Positions 6,735 to 50,057 of a stretch of DNA of 64,000 nucleotides are shown here, piece after piece. Below the pieces are notes generated by a model. It was not told the DNA's origin. It was given only the letters and a program-made list of their open reading frames with translations, and ran no database searches. The DNA lies in contig NZ_CP118270.1 in the NCBI RefSeq assembly GCF_028771845.1, positions 5,828,001 through 5,892,000 of the forward strand. The letters are read 5' to 3'. The DNA is from Paenibacillus marchantiae (lineage in GTDB: Bacteria > Bacillota > Bacilli > Paenibacillales > Paenibacillaceae). The position numbers and the translations under genes are program-made. Within the stretch, counting starts at the first letter, position 1. Every line of letters begins with the position of its first letter.

Positions 6735-7817
6735 TTAGTCGAAATAAACCGCTTTGCCTGTCTGAGCAGACTCGTAGATCGCTTCAAGAATCTGAGTAAC
6801 CACGATGGCTTGTTCAGGTTTTACAACTGGATCTTTGTCTTCTATGATCGCTTCAAGCCACATTCTAGCTTCACGATCCGCTTCATTTTCTGCACTACCG
6901 GAATAAAAAGCAACCCCGCCTGCATCCAGATCTACCTTAGTTTCAAACAGACGGCTGCGTTTCTCGCCATTGATACGCAGACCATCTTTCATATCCGCGC
7001 CACCTTCTGTTCCGCAAAGCAGTGATTTCGCTTCGCCGAACTCAGCTACGTTCAGCGCCCAGCTGGACTCGATGATAATTGTAGCCCCATTCTCCATCGT
7101 CACAAAGCCGAATGCAGAATCCTCTACCTTAAATTGTTCCGGGTCCCACGGACCAAAAGCATTGGCCGCATTCTCACGTTGACCCAGCTTGTGGAAAGTT
7201 GAGCCCATAACACTCTTCGGCTTGTAATTATCCATCAGCCAAAGAGTCAGGTCCAATGCATGCGTACCGATATCAATTAGCGGTCCTCCACCCTGCTTTT
7301 CCTCATCAAGGAACACACCCCAGGTAGGTACAGCACGGCGGCGAAGTGCAATCGCCTTACCGAAATAAATATCGCCCAGCTCGCCTTCTTCACACATTTG
7401 TTTCAGATATTGGCTGTCATTGCGGAATCGGTTCTGATACGCAATGGACAACTTTTTGCCTGTACGTTGTGCGGCTTCCAGCATAGCCTGCGCTTGTGCA
7501 GACGTTTTCGCCATTGGCTTTTCACACATTACATGTTTGCCCGCCTCAAGGGAAGCGACCGTGATAACGGAGTGGGAGTCGTTTGGTGTACACACATGTA
7601 CCACATCAATACTCTCATCTTTCAGCATCTCGTGATAATCCGTATATACTTTAGCTCCCTCAGCACCGAATTCGGCTGCTGCCTCCTCCGCACGTTCTTT
7701 CACAATGTCACAGAAAGCGACCATACGGCCCTGAGATTGTTTGGACAGGCTGGGCATATGTTTACCTTTGGCGATTCCGCCACAACCTACGATGGCGATA
7801 TTAAGTACTTTAGACAT
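6735..7817 (-). CDS. Gfo/Idh/MocA-family NAD(P)-dependent oxidoreductase
   Basis: The 360-residue enzyme has the N-terminal nucleotide-binding motif IAIVGCGGIAKG, the family signature CEKPMAKT with its catalytic lysine, and the C-terminal sheet domain containing GGGPLIDIGTHALDL with the usual Asp/His pair. It probably oxidises or reduces a secondary hydroxyl of a sugar, cyclitol or glycoside. Start ATG 7817 (MSKVLNIAIVG) is preferred over a longer frame because GGAGGA lies upstream and the motif begins at the right distance. It overlaps the stop of the preceding isomerase gene by 8 bases, showing translational coupling. Confidence 0.88.
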   Translation of the reverse strand: MSKVLNIAIVGCGGIAKGKHMPSLSKQSQGRMVAFCDIVKERAEEAAAEFGAEGAKVYTDYHEMLKDESIDVVHVCTPNDSHSVITVASLEAGKHVMCEKPMAKTSAQAQAMLEAAQRTGKKLSIAYQNRFRNDSQYLKQMCEEGELGDIYFGKAIALRRRAVPTWGVFLDEEKQGGGPLIDIGTHALDLTLWLMDNYKPKSVMGSTFHKLGQRENAANAFGPWDPEQFKVEDSAFGFVTMENGATIIIESSWALNVAEFGEAKSLLCGTEGGADMKDGLRINGEKRSRLFETKVDLDAGGVAFYSGSAENEADREARMWLEAIIEDKDPVVKPEQAIVVTQILEAIYESAQTGKAVYFD

Positions 7818-8574
7818 GAACAAGTCCTCCATTAGCGGCATATTTTCTAATCCAGTTCATACTGCTCTCGATGCTTTGCAGTGGAGGATTCTGACATACA
7901 TCCTGTTCCACAACAAGCCACTCGGCTCCCGCCTGATCTGACGCTGTAGCTACAGCTCCCAGATCTACCTCACCTTGGCCGAATTCCACTGTCAGGACTT
8001 GGCCTTCTGAACGGCGCATGTCTTTCCAGTGGACAAGTGGCAGACGTCCCGCATACTTCGCGATGACTTCCGTTGGCGGGTATCCTGCGGCGTGAGCCCA
8101 ACACGAATCCAGCTCCACTTGCAGGTGGGAAGCGGTTACGGTATCATACATCGTGTATAACGCCGGCTGACCCTCAACCTGCTCTGTAAATTCAAAATCA
8201 TGATTGTGATACATTAACACCATGTCCTGCGCTGCACATTTCTCACCAATCTCATTCAGGGAAGCAAATACGTTATCCCATTGCCGTTGTTCTTCCGACA
8301 GATAAGGGACAATCAGGTTTTTGTTTCCGATGGCTTTGTGATAAGCGATCACGCCATCAAGATCCTCAATCAGACTATTGTACTGAACATGGGTACCCAC
8401 GATCTCCAGACCGAATTCATCCAAAATGGCCTTTACTTCTTCCGGGCTATGCCCGTAAAAGTTGTGAAACTCTACGCCTTGATATCCAAGCTCTGCAACC
8501 TTGGCGAGTGTACCTTTGAAATCTTGCTCCAGTTCATCCCGTACCGTATATAGCTGTAATCCAACCTTCAACAT
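7810..8574 (-). CDS. Sugar phosphate isomerase/epimerase-like TIM-barrel protein
   Basis: The 254-residue protein starts MLKVGLQLYTVRDEL, a characteristic opening of the family, after GAGGTGA. Metal-binding segments are MYHNHDFEF, QVELDSCWA, LVHWKDM and VVEQD. It sits between two Gfo/Idh/MocA oxidoreductases with a 27-base gap upstream and an 8-base overlap downstream. An isomerase acting on the keto-sugar made by the dehydrogenases, or an eliminase of 3-keto-glycosides, would fit. It shares fold but little length with the 322-residue paralogue further along the region. Confidence 0.87.
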   Translation of the reverse strand: MLKVGLQLYTVRDELEQDFKGTLAKVAELGYQGVEFHNFYGHSPEEVKAILDEFGLEIVGTHVQYNSLIEDLDGVIAYHKAIGNKNLIVPYLSEEQRQWDNVFASLNEIGEKCAAQDMVLMYHNHDFEFTEQVEGQPALYTMYDTVTASHLQVELDSCWAHAAGYPPTEVIAKYAGRLPLVHWKDMRRSEGQVLTVEFGQGEVDLGAVATASDQAGAEWLVVEQDVCQNPPLQSIESSMNWIRKYAANGGLVHV

Positions 8575-14330: not shown

Positions 14331-15131
14331 TTACATCATACTCACAATCCAGCCGATCCAGTAAGCAAATGGAATCAATAACAACTGCGCCAACAATGTA
14401 CCAAATAAACGGGATACAAGCATACAGCCATAGATCTGATTCATTCGATCCAGCCGAATTTCACCACGCAGAGATTTGTCGCTGAGCAACGAAATACGAG
14501 GATCAATCAGGATGGTTAACAAAATGGTCGCTACTCCATTAATGAGTCCGGTGGATTGCGAAGCAGCTACAGCCTGACCCGGATAAAGATACGCAGCGTA
14601 CAGACTGGACAGGACCCCAGTCGTATAGATTGCTGTCACCGCTATGTTCAACGTCATTAGACGTCTGGGCATTCCGTTTTGTACCAATAGTTTTGCCATT
14701 TTCCATGATGGCGGGGTAATATAATACATCGCGTTTTTGAGCTTGCTGCGTTTCAGCAGTCCTCGAACCATGGAAGGAATCGATCCTGCCGCCTCAAAAT
14801 GAACGACCATTCGGGAAGCGAGCTTGACCATCGTTGGAAAACTTAGAATAGCCAAGGCCGTTCCTATCGTAGCCGCACCCATCAGCCAGTGCAGTTGCGC
14901 TGCAAAGTGTGGGTTCCCTCCACTCGCCGCAGTATCCACCAGATTGCCTACCATCGGCCCTTGGGCCATATTGGAGGTACGCGACACCAGCAACAAAATT
15001 CCGGACAGGGACAAGGCCAGCGCTATTCGCCGAGTGCGTAATCCCCCAAGGCGCAGTGCATAGGACAGGCTGTCAGCCGCATGAATAAGCATGGTAAATA
15101 ACATAGGAATGGCCAGGCTCAAACTAAACAT
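14331..15131 (-). CDS. amj: Alternate lipid II flippase Amj family protein
   Basis: The 266-residue polytopic membrane protein has the family opening LIHAADSLSYALRLGGLRT and the segment LLLVSRTSNMAQGPMVG, as in Bacillus subtilis Amj (YdaH), which can replace MurJ in flipping lipid II across the membrane. Length matches the family (about 270). The ATG is preceded by GGAGATTTACAT. In B. subtilis amj is induced by SigM under cell-envelope stress; no SigM promoter was identified here. Monocistronic and ended by the strong terminator at 14249-14296. Confidence 0.85.
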   Translation of the reverse strand: MFSLSLAIPMLFTMLIHAADSLSYALRLGGLRTRRIALALSLSGILLLVSRTSNMAQGPMVGNLVDTAASGGNPHFAAQLHWLMGAATIGTALAILSFPTMVKLASRMVVHFEAAGSIPSMVRGLLKRSKLKNAMYYITPPSWKMAKLLVQNGMPRRLMTLNIAVTAIYTTGVLSSLYAAYLYPGQAVAASQSTGLINGVATILLTILIDPRISLLSDKSLRGEIRLDRMNQIYGCMLVSRLFGTLLAQLLLIPFAYWIGWIVSMM

Positions 15132-15354
15132 ATGTAAATCTCCTTATCTTTTTCCTAATGTGCTTCTATTGTAATTTCAAGTATGGAAGCATTATACTCC
15201 TCATCCACATAAAAGTATAGAAAAGCACTAAGAAGTTGAACAGTAGAATGCACAAAAATACAGCACACGCTTCGAAGTTCTCCACAATAATCGTTTATTC
15301 ATCCGGGTGCAGGGTAATATACAAATAACTTATATTGTACAGGAGGGAATCAAT

Positions 15355-15828
15355 ATGCCGTGGAACAAACAGGATTATCCCGTTTCCATGAAAAATCTGG
15401 AGCCTCGTGTCAGACATAAGGCCATTGAGATTGCCAATGCATTGCTGGATGACGGTTATGAGGAAGGACGCTCCATTGCAATCGCGACTGCCAAAGCGGA
15501 AGAATGGGATGAGAATCATCCCACATCGAAGCATTCGAAGCAGGCTACAAAACATACTTCATCAGACAGCAAATCGGAGCATGGAAAATCTTCATCTCCA
15601 CGCCGTCATTCCGAACCTGTCTCTTCTTCCAAAAGCCATGATAATATTCATGTCGTTCCTACCGACTCTGGCTGGGCCATCAAGGAAGAAGGTCAATCCA
15701 AATCTCTGGCTACGTTCCGAACCAAAGCCGAAGCTGTGGATGCTGCCAAAGAAAAGAGTGAAAAACAAAACATTCGGGCTATTATCCATAATGAAGATGG
15801 GCAAATTGCCTCTTCCATCAAGCCTTGA
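15355..15828 (+). CDS. YdaT-like stress protein with DUF2188 domain
   Basis: The 157-residue soluble protein begins MPWNKQDYPVSMKNLEPRV after AGGAGGGAA; an in-frame GTG 16 codons earlier was rejected. The N-terminal 60 residues match the start of Bacillus subtilis YdaT (DDGYEEGRSIAIATAKAEEW). A Ser/His/Lys-rich linker (about 55-95) follows, then a DUF2188 domain (HVVPTDSGWAIKEEG to the end). YdaT belongs to the SigB general stress regulon; a SigB promoter here was not established. Molecular role unknown. Confidence 0.75.
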   Translation: MPWNKQDYPVSMKNLEPRVRHKAIEIANALLDDGYEEGRSIAIATAKAEEWDENHPTSKHSKQATKHTSSDSKSEHGKSSSPRRHSEPVSSSKSHDNIHVVPTDSGWAIKEEGQSKSLATFRTKAEAVDAAKEKSEKQNIRAIIHNEDGQIASSIKP

Positions 15829-15895
15829 GTGAATCTGTTCTAAAATAGAAATATCGTGAATGTATTACTTTTAATTTTTTTTACTGAAGGCAAGC

Positions 15896-15952
15896 AAAAA
15901 AGCCCTTTCGCCGCTAATGGAATGATTCCCATCAAGCATGCAAAAGGGCTTT
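15896..15952. terminator. Terminator after the YdaT-like gene
   Basis: Arms AAAAAGCCCTTT and AAAGGGCTTT pair across a loop of about 33 bases. It lies between the convergent YdaT-like and YitT genes and could serve both. Confidence 0.65.
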
Positions 15953-16019
15953 GTGTTTGGTATGAGGCAAGCCCACCTTACTTGAACAACATTCATTTCG
16001 AATAGGGTGGCCGTTACGT

Positions 16020-16742
16020 TTAATGCGAAACCCCTCTAGCCACAGGAGCTCGTTGTGAAGCACCGCTGACTACTTTGGCAGCAGTCGACACGGGCAGCTT
16101 CACAGCTGAGGTCGTAACCGTCCGGCGAGCCGGGAAACTGACCATATACGTAATCACTTTACTGGCAATCCATACGGCCAGAATGGTATATAAAGTTTCT
16201 TTTACCGGTAGAAAGAAAAGCGACAATCCGAGTACAAACGCATCGCTGACAAAGAAAACCGTTCCCAGCTTCCAGCCCTTCCAACGGCTAATGAGCACCG
16301 CCAGAATGTCGTCTCCACCTGTTGCTCCTCCGAATCGAAGCACCATACCAGCACCCACGCCGGTGATAACACCGGACAAGACTGCCGGAATCCACAAATT
16401 ACCGTGAAACGGAATAACCAGGGTGGAGTACCGCTCAAACCCGTCATAGAACAATGAGAATGCGGCCACACCCAGCAGCGCCTGAATCATGAACTTCCAG
16501 CCCTTGAGGAACCAGGCCAGAATCATGACTGGAATATCCAGCAGCAGCATGCCAATAGCAGGTGATAAGCCTGTCGCGTACTTTCCAAGCAGGGCCAGAC
16601 CGACAAATCCGCCCTCCGATAAATGATTCTGAAAATTAATGTGATAGTAGGCAAATGCCAAAATAAATGTTCCGAGCAGCATAATGGCGAACTTTACCGC
16701 CTCTGTCTTAACTTGTTGTAAGGTTAACGATGTTCTCTTCAT
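16020..16742 (-). CDS. YitT-family membrane protein
   Basis: The 240-residue protein has about six membrane segments and the YitT core GGATGGDDILAVLISRWKGW. The C-terminal cytosolic DUF2179 domain found in longer YitT proteins is missing and is replaced by a basic tail (VTTSAVKLPVSTAAKVVSG). Function in the family is unknown; transport is often suggested. The start has an AGGGAA site. No partner gene is linked. Confidence 0.8.
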   Translation of the reverse strand: MKRTSLTLQQVKTEAVKFAIMLLGTFILAFAYYHINFQNHLSEGGFVGLALLGKYATGLSPAIGMLLLDIPVMILAWFLKGWKFMIQALLGVAAFSLFYDGFERYSTLVIPFHGNLWIPAVLSGVITGVGAGMVLRFGGATGGDDILAVLISRWKGWKLGTVFFVSDAFVLGLSLFFLPVKETLYTILAVWIASKVITYMVSFPARRTVTTSAVKLPVSTAAKVVSGASQRAPVARGVSH

Positions 16743-17061
16743 TCAGGTTCCCTCGCAGTTTGTAAAGGTTGGTTTGCACCGACCGTACCCTGCAAAAGGC
16801 AAGCCTGGAAGAAATCATCGTATTTGTCCTTCGAATATTATTCATTCCAATCCCCTCTTTCGCAGAGTCAGCCGTTTTTTTCTTTACGGTGGTGTACTCT
16901 ACAAGGGGCGCTAAGTATAAGAGAGATCGTAACGTTTCCAGATCGTCCTTGGGGAAATTATCCTTCGGGAACTCATGGTATCCTGATCCTTTCTGTCTGT
17001 TGGTGGTTAGCTGTGCTAATTAAACTGATGAATATTACACCATGCATAAGACCATATAAAC

Positions 17062-38761: not shown

Positions 38762-39634
38762 ATGATCGAGAGCATGAAGGAGGACCACCACGAGTTTTTG
38801 GATATTATTTTTTTTACTCCGTCTGAATTCGAGAAAGCCGGTGGAGCATGGCCGATTCGAATCGGTCGTAATATAGCCAAGAGCAACTATCATATCGGCC
38901 CTCGAACGACGCCTTTTCATTATTTAATTTTTGTTCTGGAAGGCGAGGGAACTTTCATACAGAACGGACATCGTTATTCCCTGCGTGCCCGCGATGCATT
39001 CTGCCTGTATCCACAGGTTACCCATGAGTACTGGTCCGACCCAAAGGAATCTTTGCACAAAATTTTCATTGCCTTTGATGGAAAACATGCAGCTGAACTT
39101 TTGGCACGAATCGGGCTTACTCCAGACGCGCCGCATCGTTCAGGCGTACTCACGCCGGAGACGGCAAGTGGCATGCGTGCTTTTATGGAAGAGGTTCGCA
39201 AACCTCAGGGAGGCGCAAGCGACCTGGGACGACTTACCCGTTTTCTCGGATTGTTTGACCGGATTGCCAAATCCCCTGCTACCCGAGTGCTTCAACCAGA
39301 CTCTGCCACACCCTGGCTGCAAAAGGGCAAGGAGTACATGGATATTCACTTTGCCGGCGGCATTACCGTGGAAGGTGTATCTTCTCACGCTGGCGTGGAT
39401 CGGACCCATTTTGCCAAACAATTCCGTAAAGCCTACGGCCTGTCTCCTGTCCAGTATATTCAACGTCTCAAAATGAATCAGGCCAAACGGTTGCTTGTTC
39501 AGACCCCGTTAACGTTAACTGAAGTAGCGCATTCGGTGGGTTACCCTGATCTGTTTTCTTTCTCCAAAGCGTTCAAAAAGCAGGTGGGTCTGCCACCCAA
39601 CCGATATCGAACGGCCGAGAACAATAAAAGCTGA
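38762..39634 (+). CDS. AraC-family transcriptional regulator
   Basis: The 290-residue protein has an N-terminal cupin sensor (PRTTPFHYLIFVLEGEGTF; RARDAFCLYPQVTHEY) and a C-terminal double helix-turn-helix (GITVEGVSSHAGVDRTHFAK and LTEVAHSVGYPDLFSFSKAF). Start ATG 38762 has AGAGGTG 6 bases upstream; the GTG three codons earlier overlaps the site. It is divergent from the ssuD-like gene and sugar ABC genes, which it may regulate. Ended by a strong shared terminator. Confidence 0.87.
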   Translation: MIESMKEDHHEFLDIIFFTPSEFEKAGGAWPIRIGRNIAKSNYHIGPRTTPFHYLIFVLEGEGTFIQNGHRYSLRARDAFCLYPQVTHEYWSDPKESLHKIFIAFDGKHAAELLARIGLTPDAPHRSGVLTPETASGMRAFMEEVRKPQGGASDLGRLTRFLGLFDRIAKSPATRVLQPDSATPWLQKGKEYMDIHFAGGITVEGVSSHAGVDRTHFAKQFRKAYGLSPVQYIQRLKMNQAKRLLVQTPLTLTEVAHSVGYPDLFSFSKAFKKQVGLPPNRYRTAENNKS

Positions 39635-39664
39635 TTTGTCGCCATCCGCATGCTAACGAATAGC

Positions 39665-39703
39665 AAAAAAAGGCAAGCCTCCTTGATCGGAGACTTGCCT
39701 TTT
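39665..39703. terminator. Bidirectional terminator
   Basis: AAAAGGCAAG and CTTGCCTTTT with inner CTCC/GGAG pairing; A and T tracts on both sides. It ends the AraC gene and the six-gene exopolysaccharide operon. Confidence 0.88.
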
Positions 39704-39761
39704 CCTCATTACATATTACAGTGCTCTTTCTTAAACTGCATATACCTATTATATACACCCG

Positions 39762-40661
39762 CTACTTCTTCTCCTCGCTCTTTCGAGCCAGCGGAATTCC
39801 GTTTTCCTTTGCATACCATGCTTCATAATGATGCACCGCAACACCTGCAAAAGATGAATGAGAAGCGCCGAGATCAAACACTTTCTTCATTTCTTCATCC
39901 ATATTGGTGATAGATTTGCTGAAAAAGGTTAGATGATCGCCCTCATGCGTATCAGCCAGTTCGGCTCCAACCCATACCTTCTTGCCAAGCTCATCCGCTT
40001 CATCCAGCTCTTCCTTGGACAGATCATACATCTGCTGACCACGATCCCGATAGGCCATGATGGCTACCGCATCAAAGTGATCAATCACCCAGCGGCTGAA
40101 TGTACCTCCGCCTTCTGCCGACTCGCGAGCATCCAGCCAGAAAGGGATTGCGGCACTCATGTAGAGTCCGGCATCATTACCAGCTTTGGTCCAGGCCTTC
40201 ATGTTGTCGCTCCACTCCGCAATAACGCTATTCTGCTCGTTCTCCCAGCGTTTTAGCTGATAAGGCTCAACATCCAGCTGAATTCCCTCAAAGCGTTCAT
40301 TTTTGGCCGAAGCTGCATTATATGCCCGTACTTTTTCAATAAACGCAAGTCCCTCTTCCCGCTTCTCCGTATAGGCCCAGTCTGCATGACCGTTAAGGGC
40401 ATGTACTTCGATCTCAGCCTGCCTCGCAGCCGCGATGAATTTGCGGTATGTCGCATCGGGTACCTCATCCTGAATTTGCAGGAAAATGGTATTCACGCCC
40501 TGCGCCTTGGAGAAGGAGATAATTTCAGGCGTCTGCTCTGCAATAATGGAAGCGTCCCACAGCCAGGTCGCTTTGTGTTCCTCATGTGAAAACCATTTGA
40601 GTAGCCAGGGCAGAAGAAGCAGGCAGAACAGCAGGGCCAAGATGGCCCATTTTGCCTTCAC
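39762..40661 (-). CDS. Membrane-anchored TIM-barrel protein of the exopolysaccharide operon
   Basis: The 299-residue protein has one N-terminal membrane segment (about 5-24) and an extracytoplasmic domain with glycosidase-like barrel motifs: TIFLQIQDEVPD, VHALNGHADWAY, GIQLDVEPYQLKRW (acidic pair), FDAVAIMAYRD and VWVGAELADT. It probably binds or cuts the exported polymer. The start is GTG 40661, 29 bases after the dehydrogenase stop; the site GTGGGG is distant. Last gene of the operon. Family not named with confidence. Confidence 0.7.
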   Translation of the reverse strand: MKAKWAILALLFCLLLLPWLLKWFSHEEHKATWLWDASIIAEQTPEIISFSKAQGVNTIFLQIQDEVPDATYRKFIAAARQAEIEVHALNGHADWAYTEKREEGLAFIEKVRAYNAASAKNERFEGIQLDVEPYQLKRWENEQNSVIAEWSDNMKAWTKAGNDAGLYMSAAIPFWLDARESAEGGGTFSRWVIDHFDAVAIMAYRDRGQQMYDLSKEELDEADELGKKVWVGAELADTHEGDHLTFFSKSITNMDEEMKKVFDLGASHSSFAGVAVHHYEAWYAKENGIPLARKSEEKK

Positions 40662-40690
40662 CGACAGTTTGCCCCACTTGTTCGTTATAT

Positions 40691-42058
40691 TCAGACGAGC
40701 AACGCTTCACTTGGCTCAAGCACAGGGTGCTGTACCGAATGACCAATCTTGTAAATGTGCGGATGTGGATACGTTTTGAACGCATTACGTGTATCCAGAA
40801 TCGGCACGCCCATCTCGGCAATATCAAAGTAAGGCAAATCGCTGTGGTTGGTGATCAGCACGATGCAGTCGTACTTCTTGAACTGTTCCAAGTTGAACAC
40901 TTCGCTATATACCGTCTCGCCATGCTTGTCCAGGAACGATTCAGCATGTGGATCATAATAGCTGACATTGGCTCCACCTTCCTTGAACTGTTCATAGATT
41001 TCCAGTCCTGGAGATTCACGCAAATCGGCAATATTCGGTTTGTACGACATACCAAGCAACAGAATGTTGGATTTACGTACCGATTTCGCGTACTCATTCA
41101 GAATGGTTGATGTTTTGTTCAGTACATAATATGGCATATTGTCATTGGTGGATTGCGCCAGCTCAATGAACTTGCTGTAGAAACGGAATCCTTTAGCCTT
41201 CCAGGACAGGTACATCGGATCAAGCGGGATGCAGTGACCGCCGATGCCAGGGCCCGGATAGAAAGGCATGAATCCAAACGGCTTCGTCGCAGCTGCGTCG
41301 ATAACTTCCCAGATATCGATGCCCATACGGTCACACATCATTGCCATTTCATTAACAAAGGCAATGTTTACGCTGCGGAATGTATTTTCCAACAGTTTGG
41401 ACATTTCAGCCACTTTTGGTGAAGATACAGGTACAACCGTTTCAACGTATTTGCTATACAACGCTGTTCCCAGTTTGAGGCAAGCTTCAGTTGTGCCCCC
41501 GATTACTTTCGGTGTATTAAAAGTAGTGAATCGTCCGTTGGACGGGTCCACACGTTCAGGCGAGAAGCACAGGAAGTAGTCTTTGCCTGCTTCATGTCCG
41601 ATTTTGTCCAGCTCATCCTGGATCAGTTCTTCGGTAGTACCCGGATAAGTCGTGCTTTCCAGCGTAATCAGCATGCCTGGTTTCATATGCAGTTTAATCT
41701 GATCCACAACCGTCTCGATATAAGACGTATCCGGGTCCTGATTTTCACTGAGCGGTGTAGGTACGCAGATGCTCAACGCATCGATCACGCGCAGCATGCT
41801 GTAATCCGTTGTAGGCTGGAAGCGGCCGCTTTGCATCACTTTTTTCAATTCCTCGGACGAAATATCGTGAATATAGGAATCTCCCTGATAGATGCTCTCC
41901 ACTTTGGATGCATCCAGATCAATCCCGATTACCGTGAAACCCTGATTGACCATTTCCACCGCAAGTGGTAATCCTACGTAACCGAGCCCGACCACGCCGA
42001 GCACCGCTTCTTTATTTTCGATCGCATTCAGTAATGTGTGGAATTGTTGATTCTCCAT
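40691..42058 (-). CDS. Nucleotide-sugar dehydrogenase, UDP-N-acetylhexosamine type
   Basis: The 455-residue enzyme has the NAD motif GVVGLGYVGLPLAVEM, the segment CFSPERVDPSNGRF typical of UDP-GlcNAc/ManNAc 6-dehydrogenases, and the catalytic Cys276 in GPGIGGHCIPLDP. It oxidises the C6 hydroxyl to a carboxylate in two steps, giving a UDP-uronic acid. Start ATG 42058 follows GGAGGG; 16 upstream codons were rejected. It should supply the acidic precursor for the GT2 synthase in the same operon. Confidence 0.88.
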   Translation of the reverse strand: MENQQFHTLLNAIENKEAVLGVVGLGYVGLPLAVEMVNQGFTVIGIDLDASKVESIYQGDSYIHDISSEELKKVMQSGRFQPTTDYSMLRVIDALSICVPTPLSENQDPDTSYIETVVDQIKLHMKPGMLITLESTTYPGTTEELIQDELDKIGHEAGKDYFLCFSPERVDPSNGRFTTFNTPKVIGGTTEACLKLGTALYSKYVETVVPVSSPKVAEMSKLLENTFRSVNIAFVNEMAMMCDRMGIDIWEVIDAAATKPFGFMPFYPGPGIGGHCIPLDPMYLSWKAKGFRFYSKFIELAQSTNDNMPYYVLNKTSTILNEYAKSVRKSNILLLGMSYKPNIADLRESPGLEIYEQFKEGGANVSYYDPHAESFLDKHGETVYSEVFNLEQFKKYDCIVLITNHSDLPYFDIAEMGVPILDTRNAFKTYPHPHIYKIGHSVQHPVLEPSEALLV

Positions 42059-42195
42059 GATATTCCCTCCGGGCAGTGTATTTGTTTGGTTGATTGACGA
42101 ATCCATTTGATAGATGTTTGTCTGTAGATGTACTTATTTGTCTGATAAAAATTAATGAAGGCTATTTGTTTCTCTTGGCTTTACTTGTGGTGCTT

Positions 42196-42999
42196 TTAAT
42201 GCAGGCAACGCCTGATTCGGGCATCCAGCTCCACAGGTGAGAACGGTTTGGTCATATAATCATCGACTCCGCTGCGGAAGCATTGACTGATCGTTTGTTC
42301 CACACGCTGTTCCGTTAATACGACGATTTTGGGCGGCTGAGCCACATCCAGGTTCTGGATATGTTGAATGAACGGCAGGCCATCAATGCCATACAGGTTC
42401 AATTCGGTCAGCACCAGATCAGGCGTGATTTTCTCAATCAGTTCCAGTGCAGCCAGTCCGTCCACCGCTTCATAGGTTTCATACCCCTGCATCTTCAGAC
42501 GCAATTGCAGAAACTCGCGTACCGTCGGATCGTTATCCACAATCAAAATTCGTTCCGGCTCGTCTACCGTCTTGTCCAGCGTGTAGATATGAATCTCCGA
42601 CGGGTCTACCAGCTTGGCGGACTCAGCCATATGTTGAATGGTTGCCTTTGAAGGACGCTCACCTGCCGGGAAACTTGCCAGCGTGATTTGCGGATCGGCA
42701 CCAGGTACCGTCTCCTGCAATTCATGCTTGATGCGAAGCCCCTCATAATGAACCTCATCCAGCGTCAACCCTGGCAGCAGGACAGCAAGTGCCTGTGTGG
42801 CTCCATCCTGCCAGACCTGGTAGGCAGACTCACTGGTCTGCTCCAGATGTGTCCTGACCTGCTGCTCCGGCTGAGACTGCCCTGCACAATGGATGAACAT
42901 TAAGCCGCATGTTTCGGCACCCGTTTCTTTCAATCTCTGTTCTACACTGCGGTACACATTAACGGCAGCCTCACGCTGCAATGTCGCCGTATTTGGCAT
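42196..42999 (-). CDS. Degenerate GGDEF-like domain plus receiver domain lacking the phosphoacceptor Asp
   Basis: The 267-residue soluble protein has an N-terminal domain (about 10-140) with the outline of a GGDEF fold (ALAVLLPGLTLDEV; ITLASFP) but no GGDEF motif. The C-terminal receiver domain (150-267) keeps the acidic pair Asp155/Asp157, Thr229 and Lys251, but the phosphorylated position is Glu199 (LVLTELNLYG). Glu there often mimics the phosphorylated state. No output domain is present, so it likely acts by protein contact, perhaps on the synthase. Start ATG 42999 follows GGTGG. Confidence 0.75.
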   Translation of the reverse strand: MPNTATLQREAAVNVYRSVEQRLKETGAETCGLMFIHCAGQSQPEQQVRTHLEQTSESAYQVWQDGATQALAVLLPGLTLDEVHYEGLRIKHELQETVPGADPQITLASFPAGERPSKATIQHMAESAKLVDPSEIHIYTLDKTVDEPERILIVDNDPTVREFLQLRLKMQGYETYEAVDGLAALELIEKITPDLVLTELNLYGIDGLPFIQHIQNLDVAQPPKIVVLTEQRVEQTISQCFRSGVDDYMTKPFSPVELDARIRRCLH

Positions 43000-43067
43000 G
43001 TTCTTTTCCACCCTTCTCCCTCGGTTATCTATATTGTTTCTGCTGTATTACTTTGATTACGCTGTGC

Positions 43068-44465
43068 TTAAGCCGCCTCGCTTGTCTTCTCTTCCTCGGA
43101 CCAGCTCTGGCGTGTCATGGTACCCCATGAGTTGTTGTTTTGCATGAACTGGATATGCCCCTGCAATCTCCACAGCACGCCGAGCTGATGATAGCCGACG
43201 AATTTCAGAGCGGAGTAGAACAGCATTTTGACCAGATCGGATAGCTTGTTATACCGCTTGAATGCAATTTCCTCAAGCACAAGGGCTCCCACACTGAGCA
43301 GATAACCACTCACAATGTTGAGCGATCCAAAGAGCACAAGTATCGGCCACTGGGTCATATCCATCAGTACATATCCCGTGAGAGCGAGAAGTCCGGTAAT
43401 TCGGAAATACGGATTCAGCGCTTCAAAAAGAATGTTGTACGGCATGGTCAGCATGCCCATGACTTTATATTTCGGGTTGAACAACATGCCGCGATTCTCG
43501 ATCATGTTCTTCAGATTTCCACGTCCCCAGCGTTTGCGCTGACTGGACAAGATCCGGTAGGAATCCGGCGCCTGTGTCCAGCACACGGCTTCAGGGCAGA
43601 AGGCTACGCGGTATTTCAATTTATTCTCCAACATATAACGGTGAAGTTTGATGATAATGTTCATGTCTTCACCCGGATAACCGTCCCGGTATCCCCCAAC
43701 CGCAATAACCGCATCCTTGCGGAACATGCCGAAGGCACCCGAGACGATGATCAGACCATTCATATGACTCCAACCGATCCGTCCGCCGAGAAAAGCTTTG
43801 AGATACTCGATGGACTGGAACATCGGCCAAATCTTGCGAGGCAGTGAAACGTCCTGCACTGCCCCATTCTCGATTTTGCAGCCGTTGGCTATCCGTACAT
43901 CCCCGCCAATAGCCACCGTCTCTTCCGGATTCTCCATATACATGCGAGCCATACGAATCAGGGCATCCTTCTCCAGTAAAGAGTCAGCATCAATGGAAGA
44001 AATCAATGGATAATGAGACAGGTTGATTCCGGCATTGAGGGAATCGGCCTTCCCGCCGTTTTCCTTGTCAATGACATACAGGTCGGGGAATTCCGGATTG
44101 TGGTAGATCCCGCGAATTTTCTGACAGGAAATCTTGCCCCTAATCATCGTGTTGGGTACCGGCTTCAGACGATATTCTTCCAGCAACACCTTCAGGGTGG
44201 TATCGCTTGAACCATCATTCACCACGATGACTTCATACGTTGGATAATTCAGCGTCATCAGGCAGTTCACATTTTCAATAATCGTCAGTTCCTCGTTATA
44301 TGCGGGCACCAGCAAGGAAACCGATGGTACCAGCTCCGAGCCTGACAACGTATTGTATTTGGAATAATGCGATCGCCTGAAGATCGTCCAAATGTTACGG
44401 AATGATAAGGCCAGAATGGAAAAGTAAAGCGTATTTACGGCAACGACATAATAGATTGCAACCAT
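43068..44465 (-). CDS. Family 2 glycosyltransferase, processive polysaccharide synthase type
   Basis: The 465-residue membrane protein has an N-terminal membrane segment, a cytosolic GT-A domain and three or four C-terminal membrane segments. Motifs are VPAYNEELT, VVNDGSSD, SSIDADSLLEKDAL (metal-binding DAD), YPGEDMN (catalytic acid) and SSQRKRWGRGN (the Q-x-x-R-W motif of processive synthases). It would polymerise and export a glycan. ATG 44465 has no ribosome site; a strong AGGAGGGG at 44502-44509 sits 6 bases before an in-frame CTG at 44495, which may be the true start. Confidence 0.87.
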   Translation of the reverse strand: MVAIYYVVAVNTLYFSILALSFRNIWTIFRRSHYSKYNTLSGSELVPSVSLLVPAYNEELTIIENVNCLMTLNYPTYEVIVVNDGSSDTTLKVLLEEYRLKPVPNTMIRGKISCQKIRGIYHNPEFPDLYVIDKENGGKADSLNAGINLSHYPLISSIDADSLLEKDALIRMARMYMENPEETVAIGGDVRIANGCKIENGAVQDVSLPRKIWPMFQSIEYLKAFLGGRIGWSHMNGLIIVSGAFGMFRKDAVIAVGGYRDGYPGEDMNIIIKLHRYMLENKLKYRVAFCPEAVCWTQAPDSYRILSSQRKRWGRGNLKNMIENRGMLFNPKYKVMGMLTMPYNILFEALNPYFRITGLLALTGYVLMDMTQWPILVLFGSLNIVSGYLLSVGALVLEEIAFKRYNKLSDLVKMLFYSALKFVGYHQLGVLWRLQGHIQFMQNNNSWGTMTRQSWSEEEKTSEAA

Positions 44466-44487
44466 GCCGTAGATTAATAGTAGATCT

Positions 44488-45699
44488 CTAAGCAGTGTAA
44501 TCCCCTCCTACCGCAGCCACACCTGTACGTTTCTTGCTTGTTATCCGGTTCCCACGTACGGGACCGAAGTACCGATCATACAGCAGCCTTTTTTTGTTAT
44601 GTGCAATCATCTGGTCAACGGCTTTGTGGTCTGTTCCTGAGTGCTGCATCGTACTCTCAATCTGCTGCATTGCAATTTCCCGTTCAGCACCTGTGCCCTC
44701 CACAGCCGCCTGACACAAGGCTTCAAATCCCGGTTCACCCAGCTTGCCAAGGCTCTCCGCACTGTTATAGCGTACTCCCCAATCTTCATCACGCAGCGCT
44801 TTGCGCAGCAGTGGAATGCTGCCTGCCGCATGTTTCGAACCGAGCGCCTGCACCACTTCGGCACGCACCTCCGGGTCCGAATCCTGCATGAGCTTCAGAA
44901 TGGTCTCGTCCTGAAGTGCCGGACTTGCGCTAAGATATAGCTTCACCGCTTCTGCCCGTACATCCTGATGTTCTGCGCCAACAAGTCTGTCGAGTGCAGG
45001 CATCACTTCGGGTACAGCTTGTCCCCACATCGCAACCAATCCCACTTTGACAAAGTCAGGATTGCGATCTTCCAGCAACTCAATCAGAATTCTGCTTGTA
45101 TCCAGACTGGTTTCGAGCAAAATATCTGCTGCCAGATGATGAATCGATTTTCCTTTGGTTAACAGCAACGCGAGCATATCTTTCAGTTCACCCTGACGGA
45201 TGGTACATCTTGCGATCGAACGACCAATCATAATTGCCATCGGACCAGGTTTTTCTTCCTTAAGCAATTCCATCAAGCCTGGAACGGCCTCTGGACAACG
45301 CATGCCGCCCAATCGATACGCTGCATCAATCTGGCGTCCGTAACGAATACGACTCAGTTCCTTCAGATCATGCTCTACAAATCCGGCTTCACGGCAGAGT
45401 ACAATCAATTTGTTGCGATACTCGCCCTTGAACTGATCAATCCATTCAATAAGTTTGCTCTGGATGACCCGACGCTCAAGCGGGGCCAACTTCCCAGGTG
45501 GCAATCTCAGGGGACTGTCCTCTGTCAGCGCCGTCTGCAGATACGTAAAGTAGTCACGCTGCTTTAATTTATAAAACTCAATCTTGCGCCGTTTGCCGTT
45601 GTGGGACATTTTCATGGCAAACAGCAGGATTACACCCACAGCGACGAGCGCCGTACAGATGTATAGAAATAGATAAGCCAAAGCCAAATTCGGAAACAT
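44488..45699 (-). CDS. Membrane-anchored HEAT-repeat protein
   Basis: The 403-residue protein has an N-terminal membrane segment (about 5-28) and then HEAT-type helical pairs from about 130 to 345, for example DPEVRAEVVQALGSKHA and DWGVRYNSAESLGKLGE. These provide a protein-binding scaffold on the cytosolic side. It lies between the glycosidase and the synthase, ending within 8 bases of the synthase's probable start, so it is likely a structural partner of the synthase. AAAGGAGG precedes the ATG. Confidence 0.82.
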   Translation of the reverse strand: MFPNLALAYLFLYICTALVAVGVILLFAMKMSHNGKRRKIEFYKLKQRDYFTYLQTALTEDSPLRLPPGKLAPLERRVIQSKLIEWIDQFKGEYRNKLIVLCREAGFVEHDLKELSRIRYGRQIDAAYRLGGMRCPEAVPGLMELLKEEKPGPMAIMIGRSIARCTIRQGELKDMLALLLTKGKSIHHLAADILLETSLDTSRILIELLEDRNPDFVKVGLVAMWGQAVPEVMPALDRLVGAEHQDVRAEAVKLYLSASPALQDETILKLMQDSDPEVRAEVVQALGSKHAAGSIPLLRKALRDEDWGVRYNSAESLGKLGEPGFEALCQAAVEGTGAEREIAMQQIESTMQHSGTDHKAVDQMIAHNKKRLLYDRYFGPVRGNRITSKKRTGVAAVGGDYTA

Positions 45700-45725
45700 T
45701 TGAAAAGGTCCTCCTTTATACTCAT

Positions 45726-47951
45726 TTATTCGGTCTGAAAACTTGGAATTTGTTCATACCGTTTCTTCATTTCCTCGTAGCTCAGTTTCAGTCGTTCACT
45801 GTACTGTACCTGCTCCCAGGGCTGCCAGCTGTATATAGGCAATGTTTTCACATCCAGTGTCTTCTGGTCACCACCAGGCCAAGAGATACTTCCAGTAGAA
45901 CGATCCATTAGCCACGGAACCAGGGTCACACCCTTGACTGCGACAGTTTCGAATTCCCGTCCACCTTTCAGCGCTCCATACTTGATCGCTTGCAGTGAAC
46001 TTGGGTCACCGAATCCAAGCAGCATCCATGGTATACGCATCTCGATCTGATTACCGTTATATTGCCAGGCGGTTAACGAATCGGTATCGGACTGATCCGG
46101 AGCTGTCGTTCCCCGTTTCAACGTACCGACCTTCTCATTCATGAACGGTTGGGCGGAACGGGTATCCGGTGGGGTCATCCGCAGGCTGACCGCCAGGTTC
46201 CATGGATGGAATGGATCTGCCGCTTTCTCTTGCTCCTCGGGCAGCATCCCGTAACCGTCCTTGCCATAGAGGCGCTGGTTAAAGTCATAGTCCTTGGCGA
46301 TCTCCACTTGTGATTCATCATTCTGTCCCAATGTAATCACTGTTTCGAGTCCGTCACTCAGCGTTCGATCCGGAAGTCTCGTACCCGGCTGATTGCCGCC
46401 ATCCAGCGTATCCGTTCCGATGCGCAGCAAGGTCTGGTCTGGGTCAAAAGGTTGATCCAGCGTCATGCCAATGTACAGGTAGGCTTCATCATGGGTCATT
46501 TTCATTTCCTTGATGCCATCTACCTTGCCTTGCCAGACGGTGACCTCTTCCTTCTTCAGCGTATTCCAGTCATCCAGTTTCCCGTCGATGGTCAGCTGTT
46601 CCTGCTTACCGGGGTCCATGGCGAGCAGACCGAACATCTTCTCATTCGTCAGCACGTTCAGCCAGTAGGCGCGCCGATCAGCTGGAATTTCAAGCGGCAT
46701 CGTGTTCCAGGTTTTTTTGAACCACTCATCCTGCCACATGAACAAAATCGCTCCCGCATACCCTTCATCATAAATATCCTGAGTCAGCGATGCGTCGATC
46801 TCGCCCTGCTCGACCTCGTTATGTCCGCCCTGATCCCGACCTCCCATACCGAGATGGGAGATTCCAAGCGAAGACGGTACACCGTACTCTGTAATCATTA
46901 CAGGCATATCGGAAAACTCGGCTTTGAGCTTGCGCAGATAACTTTTGTACGTGTTGTACTCGCCTTTCTCATCCTTGATCGTCTGGAGTGTCTGGTCCGT
47001 ATGGAACAAGTCCGGGTAATAAGGGTACACATGGTATGCTGCAAAATATCCGCCCTGCCACTCTTCCGGTTGAATATGTCGCGCATCCACACTCACCAAA
47101 TCCTCTTCGAACAGCGGCTCGCCCGGATGATCCAACACATCGGTTGTTACCCAGTTGGTGAAGGTCATTGGATGCTCCCACCCGTATTTCTTCTCCAACA
47201 CGGCGGTATAGTCCAGCAGCTCAGCCAGCCAATTTTCGAACGGTGATGCATCCTGCGTCCCGGAAAAATGAACGCCTTTGTACTGCGGCACATCGGAATG
47301 GCTCTCATTCGTGTTGTTCACCATTGAAGGGTCCCACTCGGTCCCCACATGCCAAGCCATCAGATATTTCCCGGCATTCGTCTTGTATTTGCCGCTTGAC
47401 TCTCCCGGTTTATCGGGAATGTCCGCATCCCCATATACAGCCGATACCGCCTTTTCAATCTCCTGCTTGAACGTCTGCTCAATATGGTCAGCATAGGCAT
47501 CCTGCTTTTCGATCAACTCTTCTTCCGGCGACCATATGCCCTGTATAAAATATAACGGTTGCTCCCGGCCACGGTTATACTCAACCAATGCGGTATAAAA
47601 AATCGGCTCATGTACCGTGTACACCCGGATTACATTGGCCCCCAGATCCTCAATCTGCTGGAACCACTTCAAGTAATCCTCTTTGGTCAACGGAAATTCG
47701 CCCGGGTAATGTCCTGGTGATGTAGCACCCAGGTTCACACCTTTCACGAACATCTCCCGCCATGCGCCATCGGGTCCATATTCCATGAACCGGTCTCCAT
47801 CGGTCTTGAATTTCATCTCCGTGCCATTATCAGCTGTGTACGTAACGAGCTGGGGTTGCATATAGTGCCAGCCGGCAAATATTCCGCCTGTCACTACGGC
47901 CGCTCCTGTCAGCATCGTTAGCAACCAACGTCTTCGTCTTCGTCTGCTCAT
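45726..47951 (-). CDS. Membrane-anchored glycoside hydrolase-like protein with CBM9-like C-terminus
   Basis: The 741-residue protein has a basic start (MSRRRRRRW), one membrane segment (9-27), a family-A TIM-barrel glycosidase domain (about 60-450) and a beta-sandwich beginning near 455 (LTIDGKLDDWNTL) like CBM9. Candidate catalytic residues are Glu in WHVGTEWDP (acid/base) and VMITEYGVP (nucleophile). It probably trims or shapes the secreted polymer. First gene of the operon; the ribosome site is weak (AAGAG), with a better GAGAGGTG 16 bases away. Confidence 0.8.
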   Translation of the reverse strand: MSRRRRRRWLLTMLTGAAVVTGGIFAGWHYMQPQLVTYTADNGTEMKFKTDGDRFMEYGPDGAWREMFVKGVNLGATSPGHYPGEFPLTKEDYLKWFQQIEDLGANVIRVYTVHEPIFYTALVEYNRGREQPLYFIQGIWSPEEELIEKQDAYADHIEQTFKQEIEKAVSAVYGDADIPDKPGESSGKYKTNAGKYLMAWHVGTEWDPSMVNNTNESHSDVPQYKGVHFSGTQDASPFENWLAELLDYTAVLEKKYGWEHPMTFTNWVTTDVLDHPGEPLFEEDLVSVDARHIQPEEWQGGYFAAYHVYPYYPDLFHTDQTLQTIKDEKGEYNTYKSYLRKLKAEFSDMPVMITEYGVPSSLGISHLGMGGRDQGGHNEVEQGEIDASLTQDIYDEGYAGAILFMWQDEWFKKTWNTMPLEIPADRRAYWLNVLTNEKMFGLLAMDPGKQEQLTIDGKLDDWNTLKKEEVTVWQGKVDGIKEMKMTHDEAYLYIGMTLDQPFDPDQTLLRIGTDTLDGGNQPGTRLPDRTLSDGLETVITLGQNDESQVEIAKDYDFNQRLYGKDGYGMLPEEQEKAADPFHPWNLAVSLRMTPPDTRSAQPFMNEKVGTLKRGTTAPDQSDTDSLTAWQYNGNQIEMRIPWMLLGFGDPSSLQAIKYGALKGGREFETVAVKGVTLVPWLMDRSTGSISWPGGDQKTLDVKTLPIYSWQPWEQVQYSERLKLSYEEMKKRYEQIPSFQTE

Positions 47952-48812
47952 GGCTCTTGATTGCTCACCTCTCTAGTATGCATCCTGCTTCATCTGCGGA
48001 TCTTAAATGACATGAAGGTCTGCGGGAAATCCCGCATCGGATGTCCGCTTTGGGTAGAGATGTCAGCGGTGTAGTTCTCACTATAGCTCTAAGACTCTGC
48101 ATTTGTAACTAGGCTGTTGGAAGCAAACGTGAACTGCAACATTCTGCCCATAATTCGTAAAATGCGCCATCAACTAGCATCCATGAGCCCTTCTTGCTCT
48201 TATGTCCCATGGACACGAATATATGCCACTTTAACCGTCCGTTTGAGGTTCTTCCAGGCTTGCACATCTCTACCCGTTATTGTTATATGCAACGCGGATT
48301 GCGAGATCTGTTTCCGCTTGAACGCTTACCCCATTAAACGCTAATGATATTTTAAAGTTGCGGACATTTTTACAGTATTAACCATAAAGATTACAAAATT
48401 GATACTATAGTCCGATAACGTATCCTTGAAAACCCGCGTCCTATCAAGGTTTTCTGAAAAGTGCAGAAAATGAAAAAAGGACATCAGTCCCCCCCTATAG
48501 GACTGTGCCCATTTATATTACTTTTACATAAAGCCCAATGAACACCCGGTCATCACCCGGAAGTCACGGATCTCTTACACGAAATGTAAAAAAATACATC
48601 TTTTTTCCTAAATTTTGACTCTAATAGGTCCATCCAATAATTGTGTCCAATTTGCAAAATAATTCCGGTTGCCGCATCTGGCATTGTCGGATATGCTTAT
48701 AAAACAGGAACACTTGTTCCATACTGTAAATAAACTGTAAAATAGCATTGGCTGAATGTACCCTATCGCTGCACAGAAGCAGCCGAATCATGAATAAAAG
48801 GAGAGAAGTACT
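47952..48812. other. Long divergent control region
   Basis: About 860 bases without a supported gene. It contains a hairpin TGCGGG-AAAT-CCCGCA at 48021-48036 in the operon leader, an AGTCC/GGACT hairpin near 48485-48505, and the LexA-box promoter of the polymerase gene (48707-48743). I looked for a cyclic-di-GMP riboswitch core and did not find one. Confidence 0.5.
48707..48743 (+). promoter_or_regulatory. LexA (SOS) box and promoter of the Y-family polymerase
   Basis: GGAACACTTGTTCC at 48707-48720 is a perfect palindrome with the GAAC-N4-GTTC core. It overlaps a -35 TTGTTC (48715-48720), which is 17 bases from a -10 TAAAAT (48738-48743). Confidence 0.75.
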
Positions 48813-50057
48813 ATGCCCCGCAAAGACGGACGTGTCATTATGCTGGCCGATTGCCAGTCATTTTATGCCAGTGTGGAGAAGTCTGCACATCCTGAATACA
48901 GAGACCGTCCGCTTGTTGTTGCGGGAGATCCTGCACGCCGTTCAGGCATTATTCTGGCAGCCTGCCCACTCGCTAAGTCCTATGGGATTACTACAGCAGA
49001 ACGGCTGGGTGAGGCTCTTGCCAAATGCCCCGATGTTGTCGTCATTCGTCCCCGGATGGCCGAATATATTCGTGTTTCCCTACACATTACCCGTATCCTT
49101 CAGTCCTATACCGATCTGGTTGAACCGTATAGCATTGACGAACAGTTTCTGGATGTCACCGGAAGTTTAGATCTGTTCGGCAGTCCCGAAACGATTGCCC
49201 GCAGTATTCAGGACAGGGTAATGGAAGAGACTGGCGTCTATATCCGCGTCGGCATCAGCGACACCAAGGTTGTCAGCAAGATGGCCTGTGACCTGTATGC
49301 CAAAAAAGTCCCCGGAGGCATCTATACATTGCCCCGCAAGGACGTGCAGACAACATTGTGGAAAAAGCCTGTTCGAGACATGTTTATGGTCGGTTCCCGG
49401 ATGGGGCAGCATCTCTATAAGATGGGGATTCATACGATTGGGGATCTAGCGCAGACTCCATTGTCCCGGCTGAGAGAGCGTTGGGGTGTAAATGGTGAGG
49501 TACTGTGGCGTATTGCCCGCGGGATCGATGATTCTCCGGTAAAACCCGGGACATATGCTCACCAGCAGCAGGGCATTGGACATCAGATGACATTGCCTCG
49601 GGACTATGAATCGTGGGAAGACATCAAAGTGGTGCTGCTCGAACTGGCGGAGCTGGTCAGCCGGCGTTCCCGGGACAAATCGCTCATGGGCAATGTCGTC
49701 TCTGTAGGATGTCGGGGGCAGGATTACGATCGTCCAACCGGCTTCTCCCGCCAGATGAAGGTCAATGAACCTACCAACATCACCGATGAAGTATACGATG
49801 CGGCAGCAGCTTTGTTTCTGCGCCATTGGGACGGATTACCCATTCGCCGCATCAGCGTGTCATTGACCGGACTCGTGCCCGATTCCGAAGTACAGCTGTC
49901 CTGGTTCGATGACCGTGAACGCAAAAGAGAACTGGAACGTGCCACGGATGACATCAAGCGCAAGTTTGGAGAAACCGCGATTATGCGAGCCTCCTCGCTC
50001 TGCTCCTCCGCACAGGCACAGGACCGTTCTCATAAAATTGGAGGTCACTATAAATGA
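48813..50057 (+). CDS. Y-family DNA polymerase, UvrX/YqjW type
   Basis: The 414-residue translesion polymerase has catalytic acids Asp13 (MLADCQSFYASVE) and Asp109-Glu110 (YSIDEQFLDVTG), a helix-hairpin-helix region (MGIHTIGDLAQTPL) and a little-finger domain. It copies past lesions with low fidelity. AAAGGAG precedes the ATG. It overlaps the next yolD-like gene by 4 bases, the same pairing as uvrX-yolD and yqjW-yqjX in Bacillus subtilis. A LexA box in the promoter indicates SOS induction. Confidence 0.92.
   Translation: MPRKDGRVIMLADCQSFYASVEKSAHPEYRDRPLVVAGDPARRSGIILAACPLAKSYGITTAERLGEALAKCPDVVVIRPRMAEYIRVSLHITRILQSYTDLVEPYSIDEQFLDVTGSLDLFGSPETIARSIQDRVMEETGVYIRVGISDTKVVSKMACDLYAKKVPGGIYTLPRKDVQTTLWKKPVRDMFMVGSRMGQHLYKMGIHTIGDLAQTPLSRLRERWGVNGEVLWRIARGIDDSPVKPGTYAHQQQGIGHQMTLPRDYESWEDIKVVLLELAELVSRRSRDKSLMGNVVSVGCRGQDYDRPTGFSRQMKVNEPTNITDEVYDAAAALFLRHWDGLPIRRISVSLTGLVPDSEVQLSWFDDRERKRELERATDDIKRKFGETAIMRASSLCSSAQAQDRSHKIGGHYK

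Follow-up and report, generated by a model that had tools for sequence, protein, structure and literature searches.

A HEAT-linked glycosyltransferase operon of Paenibacillus marchantiae as a candidate synthase-dependent system for an extracellular polysaccharide

Background

Hyaluronan synthase operons (hasA-hasB) bring together a single family 2 glycosyltransferase (GT2) and a nucleotide-sugar dehydrogenase, and single-domain hyaluronan synthases alternate two donors. PelD is a receptor of cyclic di-GMP (c-di-GMP) with a degenerate GGDEF domain. The I-site is the site through which YdaK binds c-di-GMP (PMC7064775), and a 2020 survey lists five synthase-dependent polymers (PMC7112194). We analyzed a stretch of 64,000 nucleotides, hereafter the window (positions 5,828,001 to 5,892,000 of contig NZ_CP118270.1, forward strand), from the genome of Paenibacillus marchantiae, a single contig of 6.98 Mb, and describe a six-gene operon that, as in hasA-hasB, combines a single GT2 with a nucleotide-sugar dehydrogenase. 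We put at roughly 0.6 the probability that its products form a HEAT-linked, synthase-dependent machine for an extracellular polysaccharide, with the GT2, HEAT-repeat, glycosidase, TIM-type, dehydrogenase, and regulator proteins in the roles proposed below. No description of the operon was found in the full-text open-licence literature, and no match to a described polymer was identified, in keeping with an initial annotation of the window that had called the product probably not yet described.

Results

Gene content, order, and distribution

The operon (minus strand of the window, 47951 to 39762) consists of 6 co-directed genes, named here GH, HEAT, GT2, REC, UDH, and TIM, with protein lengths in amino acids (aa):

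GH, 45726..47951, minus strand: 741 aa; membrane-anchored clan GH-A glycosidase with a C-terminal beta-rich domain
HEAT, 44488..45699, minus strand: 403 aa; one N-terminal hydrophobic segment, then HEAT repeats
GT2, 43068..44495, minus strand: processive-type glycosyltransferase 2; 465 aa from ATG 44465, probably 475 aa from CTG 44495
REC, 42196..43011, minus strand: 271 aa; receiver domain behind a GGDEF-like N-domain that lacks both the GGDEF motif and the I-site
UDH, 40691..42106, minus strand: 471 aa, probably 455 aa from the likely start at 42058; nucleotide-sugar dehydrogenase
TIM, 39762..40661, minus strand: 299 aa; membrane-anchored TIM-type protein, perhaps GH18-like

The Pfam families identified over cut-off were GT2, HEAT, Response_reg, and three UDPG_MGDP_dh domains, with none in the GH and TIM proteins of the window. 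The window GT2 gave 139 relatives among named genome contigs, and the best 80 were kept as loci. The order GH-HEAT-GT2-REC-UDH was retained on one strand in all 80, which places the grouping beyond chance and confirms the operon as initially annotated. TIM lay directly downstream in 70 of these loci; in 7 Cohnella and 3 Brevibacillus loci it was moved, inverted, multiplied, or not found within the stretch examined. Best-segment identity of GT2 to the window ranged from 69% to 100%, with HEAT, REC, and TIM dropping to ~30-40% at the far end; two strains of Paenibacillus taichungensis carry a GT2 with 99-100% identity to the window one. A genus survey identified GT2 at E values up to 1e-150 in 56 of 75 genomes. 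The GH profile matched 72 of 148 family genomes and 23 of 398 genomes of a phylum sample, a count that may be low, with at most 2 candidates scored per genome. This distribution across genus, family, and phylum marks a common accessory operon and not an odd local grouping. The GH reading frame was broken in 2 loci (L019 and L040). A few kilobases downstream of the operon, 4 others (L031, L032, L033, and L043, ~14500-17000) had an additional dehydrogenase (30-33% identity) as well as a further GT2-like match (21-25%).

The synthase and its HEAT partner

The motif residues of GT2 (D84, D141, D159/D161, E266-D267, and Q309-R312-W313, forming the D, DxD, ED, and QxxRW motifs) were present in 105 of 105 rows, none of them from Deinococcus, and, together with the constant gene order, bear out the initial reading of a processive-type GT2 with a fixed partner set. 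Simple hydropathy identified hydrophobic segments at residues 2-20, 238-256, and 375-393. The best named NCBIfam model was PgaC/IcaA (TIGR03937), at 134.1 bits against a cut-off of 422.3, and the XrtG-associated glycosyltransferase model (TIGR03111) reached 118.4 bits (cut-off 363.95); the cellulose synthase BcsA model (TIGR03030) gave 35.6 of the 699.1 bits required. GT2 probably starts at CTG 44495, overlapping the HEAT stop codon. A CTG occupies this place in 70 of 80 relatives, the Shine-Dalgarno GGAGG before it lies within the HEAT gene and also encodes the conserved HEAT end GGDYTA, and the Cohnella and Brevibacillus rows printed have ATG or TTG at, or adjoining, the same place.

The HEAT protein has a single N-terminal hydrophobic segment followed by a basic stretch and then the repeats, so that the repeats probably face the cytoplasm, as judged from hydropathy and basic residues only. 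No BcsB-like Pfam match was found in the six proteins at E values up to 1, as the initial annotation had said; its further idea, that HEAT stands in for a BcsB-like subunit, was dropped because the predicted topology is cytoplasmic.

For more distant comparisons, we assembled 34 regions. Of the 19 GH-bearing phylum genomes that lie outside the genus, 17 contributed 18 regions, and the family contributed another 16 (from 16 of its 72 GH-bearing genomes). Genomes G344 and G393 do not belong to the set, nor do four same-genus genomes of the phylum sample. A GT2 of the window class (>300 bits to the profile) lay near GH in 23 of the 34, a share taken from a non-random sample because the family genomes were chosen by their divergent or long GH frames. 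HEAT was detected in 22 of these 23 regions, in some at 20-30 bits only. Fusions joined HEAT to GT2 in L119 (1378 aa, with a divergent GH), GH to HEAT in L123 (1081 aa), and TIM to GH in L131 (1025 aa), suggesting that HEAT, GT2, GH, and TIM form one machine. Fusions and gene order make HEAT a constant companion of the synthase, probably one that serves as a scaffold or as a control subunit linking the synthase to the regulator. Further, plasmids of Deinococcus radiophilus and Planococcus maritimus carried a GH-like gene, HEAT, and a glycosyltransferase gene adjoining one another. On the Planococcus plasmid (L148, 4021-12375), polyphosphate-polymerase-like, DUF4956, and CotH kinase genes came before these three. 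Many relatives, including L132 (~6848-7990), had a ~360-aa stretch without Pfam match before GH, which is probably extracellular and a possible BcsB-like part; by eye, a similar stretch follows GT2 in the L119 fusion (~residues 1000-1378).

The dehydrogenase and the synthase tree

UDH scored 421.3 bits against the nucleotide-sugar dehydrogenase subfamily TIGR03026, above its cut-off of 189.8, and had the catalytic GGHC motif in 63 of 63 rows; 18 loci are omitted from these rows, and tblastn matched UDH in all 80 loci. Models of UDP-N-acetylmannosamine dehydrogenases gave 243.3 bits (WecC, cut-off 459) and 254.5 bits (archaeal enzyme, cut-off 750), and TviB gave 187.8 bits (cut-off 592), with the UDP-glucose dehydrogenase models TuaD (148.3 bits) and AglM (156.9 bits) lower. 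The best PDB sequence match was Cap5O. UDH is probably of the UDP-N-acetylhexosamine (UDP-HexNAc) type; the initial assignment as a UDP-HexNAc dehydrogenase holds in that the UDP-glucose models are outscored, but not as an equivalog-level identification.

Same-strand UDH was identified in 1 of the 23 distant GT2 clusters (L131), and L122 has UDH on the opposite strand. In a tree of 51 GT2 rows, without any Deinococcus glycosyltransferase, the 28 UDH-linked GT2s (window, 26 named loci, and L131) formed one clade with support 100/100, on a stem of 1.21 changes per column. The exact sister of this clade is unsure because its neighbor, L119, is a long branch. Given this single, long-stemmed clade, UDH accompanies a marked change of the synthase; a switch of donor would be consistent with it, though other causes are possible.

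The GH and TIM proteins

A predicted GH model (predicted local distance difference test, pLDDT, 80.8) had a clan GH-A fold, with Z scores of 24.6 to GH157 (root-mean-square deviation 3.2, 316 residues aligned), 24.4 to GH2, and 23.1 to GH5; with these scores nearly tied, the family is not fixed. By position, E205 is the acid/base and E355 the nucleophile, and the Glu pair was present in 107 of 109 rows (omitting L019 and L040, with their broken frames, L114, L116, L125, L127, L142, L143, and second GH genes). Fold and Glu pair together uphold the initial call of a family-A glycosidase. The CBM9-like domain of the same annotation fared less well, as the C-terminal part of GH matched the Firmicu-CTERM domain TIGR04145 (NCBIfam) weakly, at 24.8 bits against a cut-off of 50. 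No Pfam family exceeded its cut-off in 21 GH members, and the GH profile found nothing real among PDB sequences. GH72 gave weak matches (best E value 0.15, 2 of 21 members) and was not taken up; it was absent among the fold-search rows listed, an absence that does not argue against it.

The TIM profile matched PDB entry 10yv (Cellulomonas fimi; named 'Putative GH97' by its depositors) at 1.1e-27, and D130, E132, and Y204 of the D-x-E and MAYR motifs were present in 79 of 79 rows (omitting L079, L081, and L083, which have no plus-strand copy, and L084 and L088, for length). GH18 was not among the Pfam families listed for 17 TIM members at E values up to 1. An hhalign comparison with a GH18 profile from the same genome placed FxGIQxDVE on FDGVDLDWE and MAYRD on MTYD (P 0.0032, probability 9.9%), against P 0.15 for a GH5 control profile; the GH18 profile is thin, built from 5 of 8 loci (the rest lacking the motif sought), with two rows apparently one protein. 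This alignment is suggestive, but no proof, of a GH18-like enzyme; such an enzyme would suit a polymer of N-acetylhexosamine. GH and TIM are candidates for unassigned glycosidase families.

The REC regulator and the c-di-GMP link

At the phospho-acceptor position of the receiver, 70 of 80 rows (window plus 79 loci, omitting L039) had Glu, the window included, and 10, all from Cohnella or Brevibacillus, had Asp. The second acid of the acidic pair was replaced in all 80 rows, and the window REC does not show the acceptor Asp plus acidic pair of a phosphorylatable receiver.

The N-domain had been annotated initially as a degenerate GGDEF. No Pfam GGDEF match was obtained in 21 of 21 members at E values up to 1, but its predicted elements, H-E-H-E-E-H-E-H-E (pLDDT 84.2, predicted template modeling score 0.53), follow the order of a GGDEF domain. 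A GGDEF profile from the same genome (9 of 14 proteins, the remaining 5 lacking the motif sought) aligned with the window N-domain at P 0.012, with three controls at 0.12-0.15, and the GGDEF domains of relatives did no better (P 0.075 and 0.031). The genome holds 14 GGDEF matches, none of them in the operon. The rows listed from structure searches with the REC model covered the receiver part only, and these searches therefore neither support nor exclude a GGDEF fold. The regulators of relatives and the predicted topology point to a possible degenerate GGDEF; the Pfam searches do not.

Regulators that pair a receiver with a GGDEF-like domain were aligned from 14 distant clusters. Among the 9 of these 14 regulators examined with Pfam, GGDEF matched six (L119, L132, L139, L126, L145, and L146) and did not match L133, L136, and L134. 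A profile of six weak regulators (L121, L133, L134, L135, L136, and L141) matched the GGDEF proteins of the window genome at a probability of 95.7%. The full GG[DE]EF motif was present in none of the 14, with AGDEF in L126, and the I-site RxxD, five residues upstream of the GGDEF place, in 12. At the aligned place, RxxD was absent from all 80 window-clade rows, and the window REC has no RxxD within its first 150 residues. By motif, the initially proposed c-di-GMP link is seen in most relatives examined but not in the window REC, where the binding motif is absent. We infer gating by c-di-GMP in the ancestral module, followed in the window clade by loss of that control and, mostly, of phosphorylation. 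A cyclase-like protein whose GGEEF and I-site are both intact lies beside the clusters of L129 and L123, and in L119 (10427-12637) GGDEF, receiver, and DivIVA domains occur in one regulator adjoining the HEAT-GT2 fusion.

Leader, terminator, and genomic setting

Two noncoding elements flank the genes:

Leader/promoter region, 47952..48812, minus strand: ~860 bases, with conserved blocks at ~48752-48610, 48460-48335, and 48160-48060
Terminator-like hairpin, 39706-39665, minus strand: 18 pairs, followed by a T run, after the TIM gene

The leader blocks were near-invariant among 15 close rows (window plus 14 relatives) and partly kept in all 23 rows. Two short leader sequences, of 19 and 27 bases, were matched against the genome with up to 3 mismatches allowed, and exact matches occurred at the operon only; the first had 1 further site with 2 mismatches and 3 with 3, about equal to its control. 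A terminator-like hairpin also lies within the leader at ~48512-48471, ~520 bases upstream of GH. Rfam gave no match, either at gathering scores across the whole window or, with E values up to 1, within 39500-48850. A promoter scan returned 4 sites and shuffles predicted 13.0, so the scan gives no evidence of a promoter. The hairpin at the operon end has the longest stem of 14 terminator-like sites in the region, for which shuffles predict 8.6. Upstream, ~860 bases from GH, the neighbor is a divergent Y-family polymerase gene, and downstream it is a converging AraC-type gene.

Discussion

In the HEAT-linked machine that we propose, GT2 would polymerize a nucleotide sugar at the membrane and pass the chain outward, judging from its motifs and hydropathy, and HEAT, held by a one-helix anchor and facing the cytoplasm, would link synthase and regulator. 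Outside the cell, the anchored GH-A enzyme would trim or release the chain, and TIM, if GH18-like, may be a second hydrolase or a binding protein. UDH would supply UDP-N-acetylhexosaminuronic acid, and the GT2 clade may use it alone or, by analogy with hyaluronan synthase, alternating with UDP-HexNAc; the polymer would then carry N-acetyl-uronic acid, as the initial annotation proposed. In the Paenibacillaceae lineage, a dehydrogenase probably specific for UDP-HexNAc would have been acquired, the donor may have changed, and direct gating by c-di-GMP would have disappeared; with the I-site and mostly the receiver Asp gone from the window clade, the regulator may hold the machine on or answer another signal.

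A broader proposal is tentative, and we judge it somewhat short of an even chance. HEAT-linked GT2 synthases would constitute a distinct, widespread, and undescribed class of polysaccharide machines in Bacillota, reaching at least 1 Deinococcus plasmid, in which a cytoplasmic HEAT subunit replaces partners of the PilZ, PelD, or PgaD type; one Paenibacillaceae lineage would have gained the UDP-HexNAc dehydrogenase, turned, in the manner of hyaluronan synthesis, to making an N-acetyl-uronic-acid polymer, and shed both c-di-GMP binding and phosphorylation of its regulator. If the HEAT-linked reading is right, the operon would extend the list of five synthase-dependent polymers in the 2020 survey (PMC7112194) by another type, and Paenibacillus, Cohnella, and Brevibacillus would have an unexplored, probably acidic polymer. 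The module would also be a natural experiment, occurring with and without the c-di-GMP I-site and with and without the dehydrogenase, and this contrast would bear on GT2 donor choice and on the role of the HEAT subunit.

Several observations weigh against these readings. At E values up to 1e-150, 19 of 75 genus genomes were without GT2, and 11 of the 34 distant GH regions had no window-class GT2 nearby. HEAT is just 251 aa, with the C-terminal repeats missing, in six loci (L063, L064, L065, L067, L068, and L072), so these repeats are dispensable there, and 2 of the 109 GH rows (L130 and L148) are missing the catalytic Glu pair altogether. UDH scores below every equivalog cut-off, which allows no firm choice of substrate. 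By sequence, the GGDEF kinship of the window N-domain is weak, and the I-site position in the window clade consequently rests on a weak alignment; RxxD occurs somewhere in residues 40-100 in 7 of the 80 window-clade rows, the window not among them. Among the distant regulators, the I-site is missing in L119 and L126 (2 of 14), and the AGDEF of L126 may be active.

Instead of a secreted matrix polysaccharide, the same genes could make a polymer attached to the wall, akin to teichuronic acid or a secondary cell wall polymer. N-acetyl-uronic acids occur in such polymers, the host families have S-layers, and UDH is constant in the 80 loci, all of which count for this explanation. We nevertheless regard it as unlikely, as no ligase, flippase, or lipid-carrier transferase model was among the matches listed for the six proteins (for REC, the best 25 NCBIfam matches), the full processive signature is kept throughout the GT2 rows, and 22 of the 23 distant GT2 clusters are without same-strand UDH. 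This last count also favors a view to which we give slightly less weight, namely, that UDH feeds another pathway and is merely cotranscribed, with GT2 making a neutral N-acetylhexosamine polymer, as the UDH-less relatives may; L122, with UDH on the opposite strand, is one of these 22. Set against it are the fixed place of UDH in every one of the 80 loci and the single clade, on its long stem, of the UDH-linked GT2s. That GT2 is a single-step transferase onto lipid or protein, with GH and TIM acting on other glycans, seems improbable: the GT2 superfamily is broad and its motifs give no certain reading of processivity, but QxxRW, ED, and DxD are invariant, the best named models are PgaC/IcaA and the XrtG-associated glycosyltransferase (though both below cut-off), and fusions join GT2, HEAT, and GH.

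Comparison with described systems

The initial annotation had likened the operon to ydaJKLMN of Bacillus subtilis, and the 2 share a broad plan of a GT2, an anchored glycosidase, and a degenerate GGDEF-like regulator; among relatives of the module, 12 of 14 regulators also keep the I-site. GT2 is the only one of the yda-defining parts tested that occurs in the window operon: the glycosidase is GH-A and not GH8 (no Pfam GH8 match in the six proteins), I-site and BcsB-like match are absent, and HEAT and UDH are added. Elsewhere in the same genome, at C1:910-914 kb (L168, 7448-11006), consecutive genes encode a GH8 protein, a GGDEF protein of degenerate type, and a GT2, a set that looks like the yda type. 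Because of this separate locus, we conclude that the window operon is not ydaJKLMN; the kinship is not borne out, and descent as a diverged ydaJKLMN is highly improbable.

Among other systems, the poly-N-acetylglucosamine synthases PgaC/IcaA are membrane GT2s and the best named NCBIfam match of the window GT2, but no PgaB/IcaB or PgaD model was among the Pfam and NCBIfam matches listed for the six proteins. The XrtG-associated system differs in that its model scores below cut-off and no exosortase model was among the matches listed for the same proteins. The regulators of relatives resemble YdaK-type degenerate-GGDEF receptors (PMC7064775) in their RxxD five residues upstream in 12 of 14. They differ from the PelD/YdaK type in carrying a receiver domain, and the window REC differs further in having no RxxD. 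Finally, in comparison with the hyaluronan synthase operons hasA-hasB, the dehydrogenase of the window scores as the UDP-HexNAc type, and the synthase is accompanied by GH, HEAT, REC, and TIM partners.

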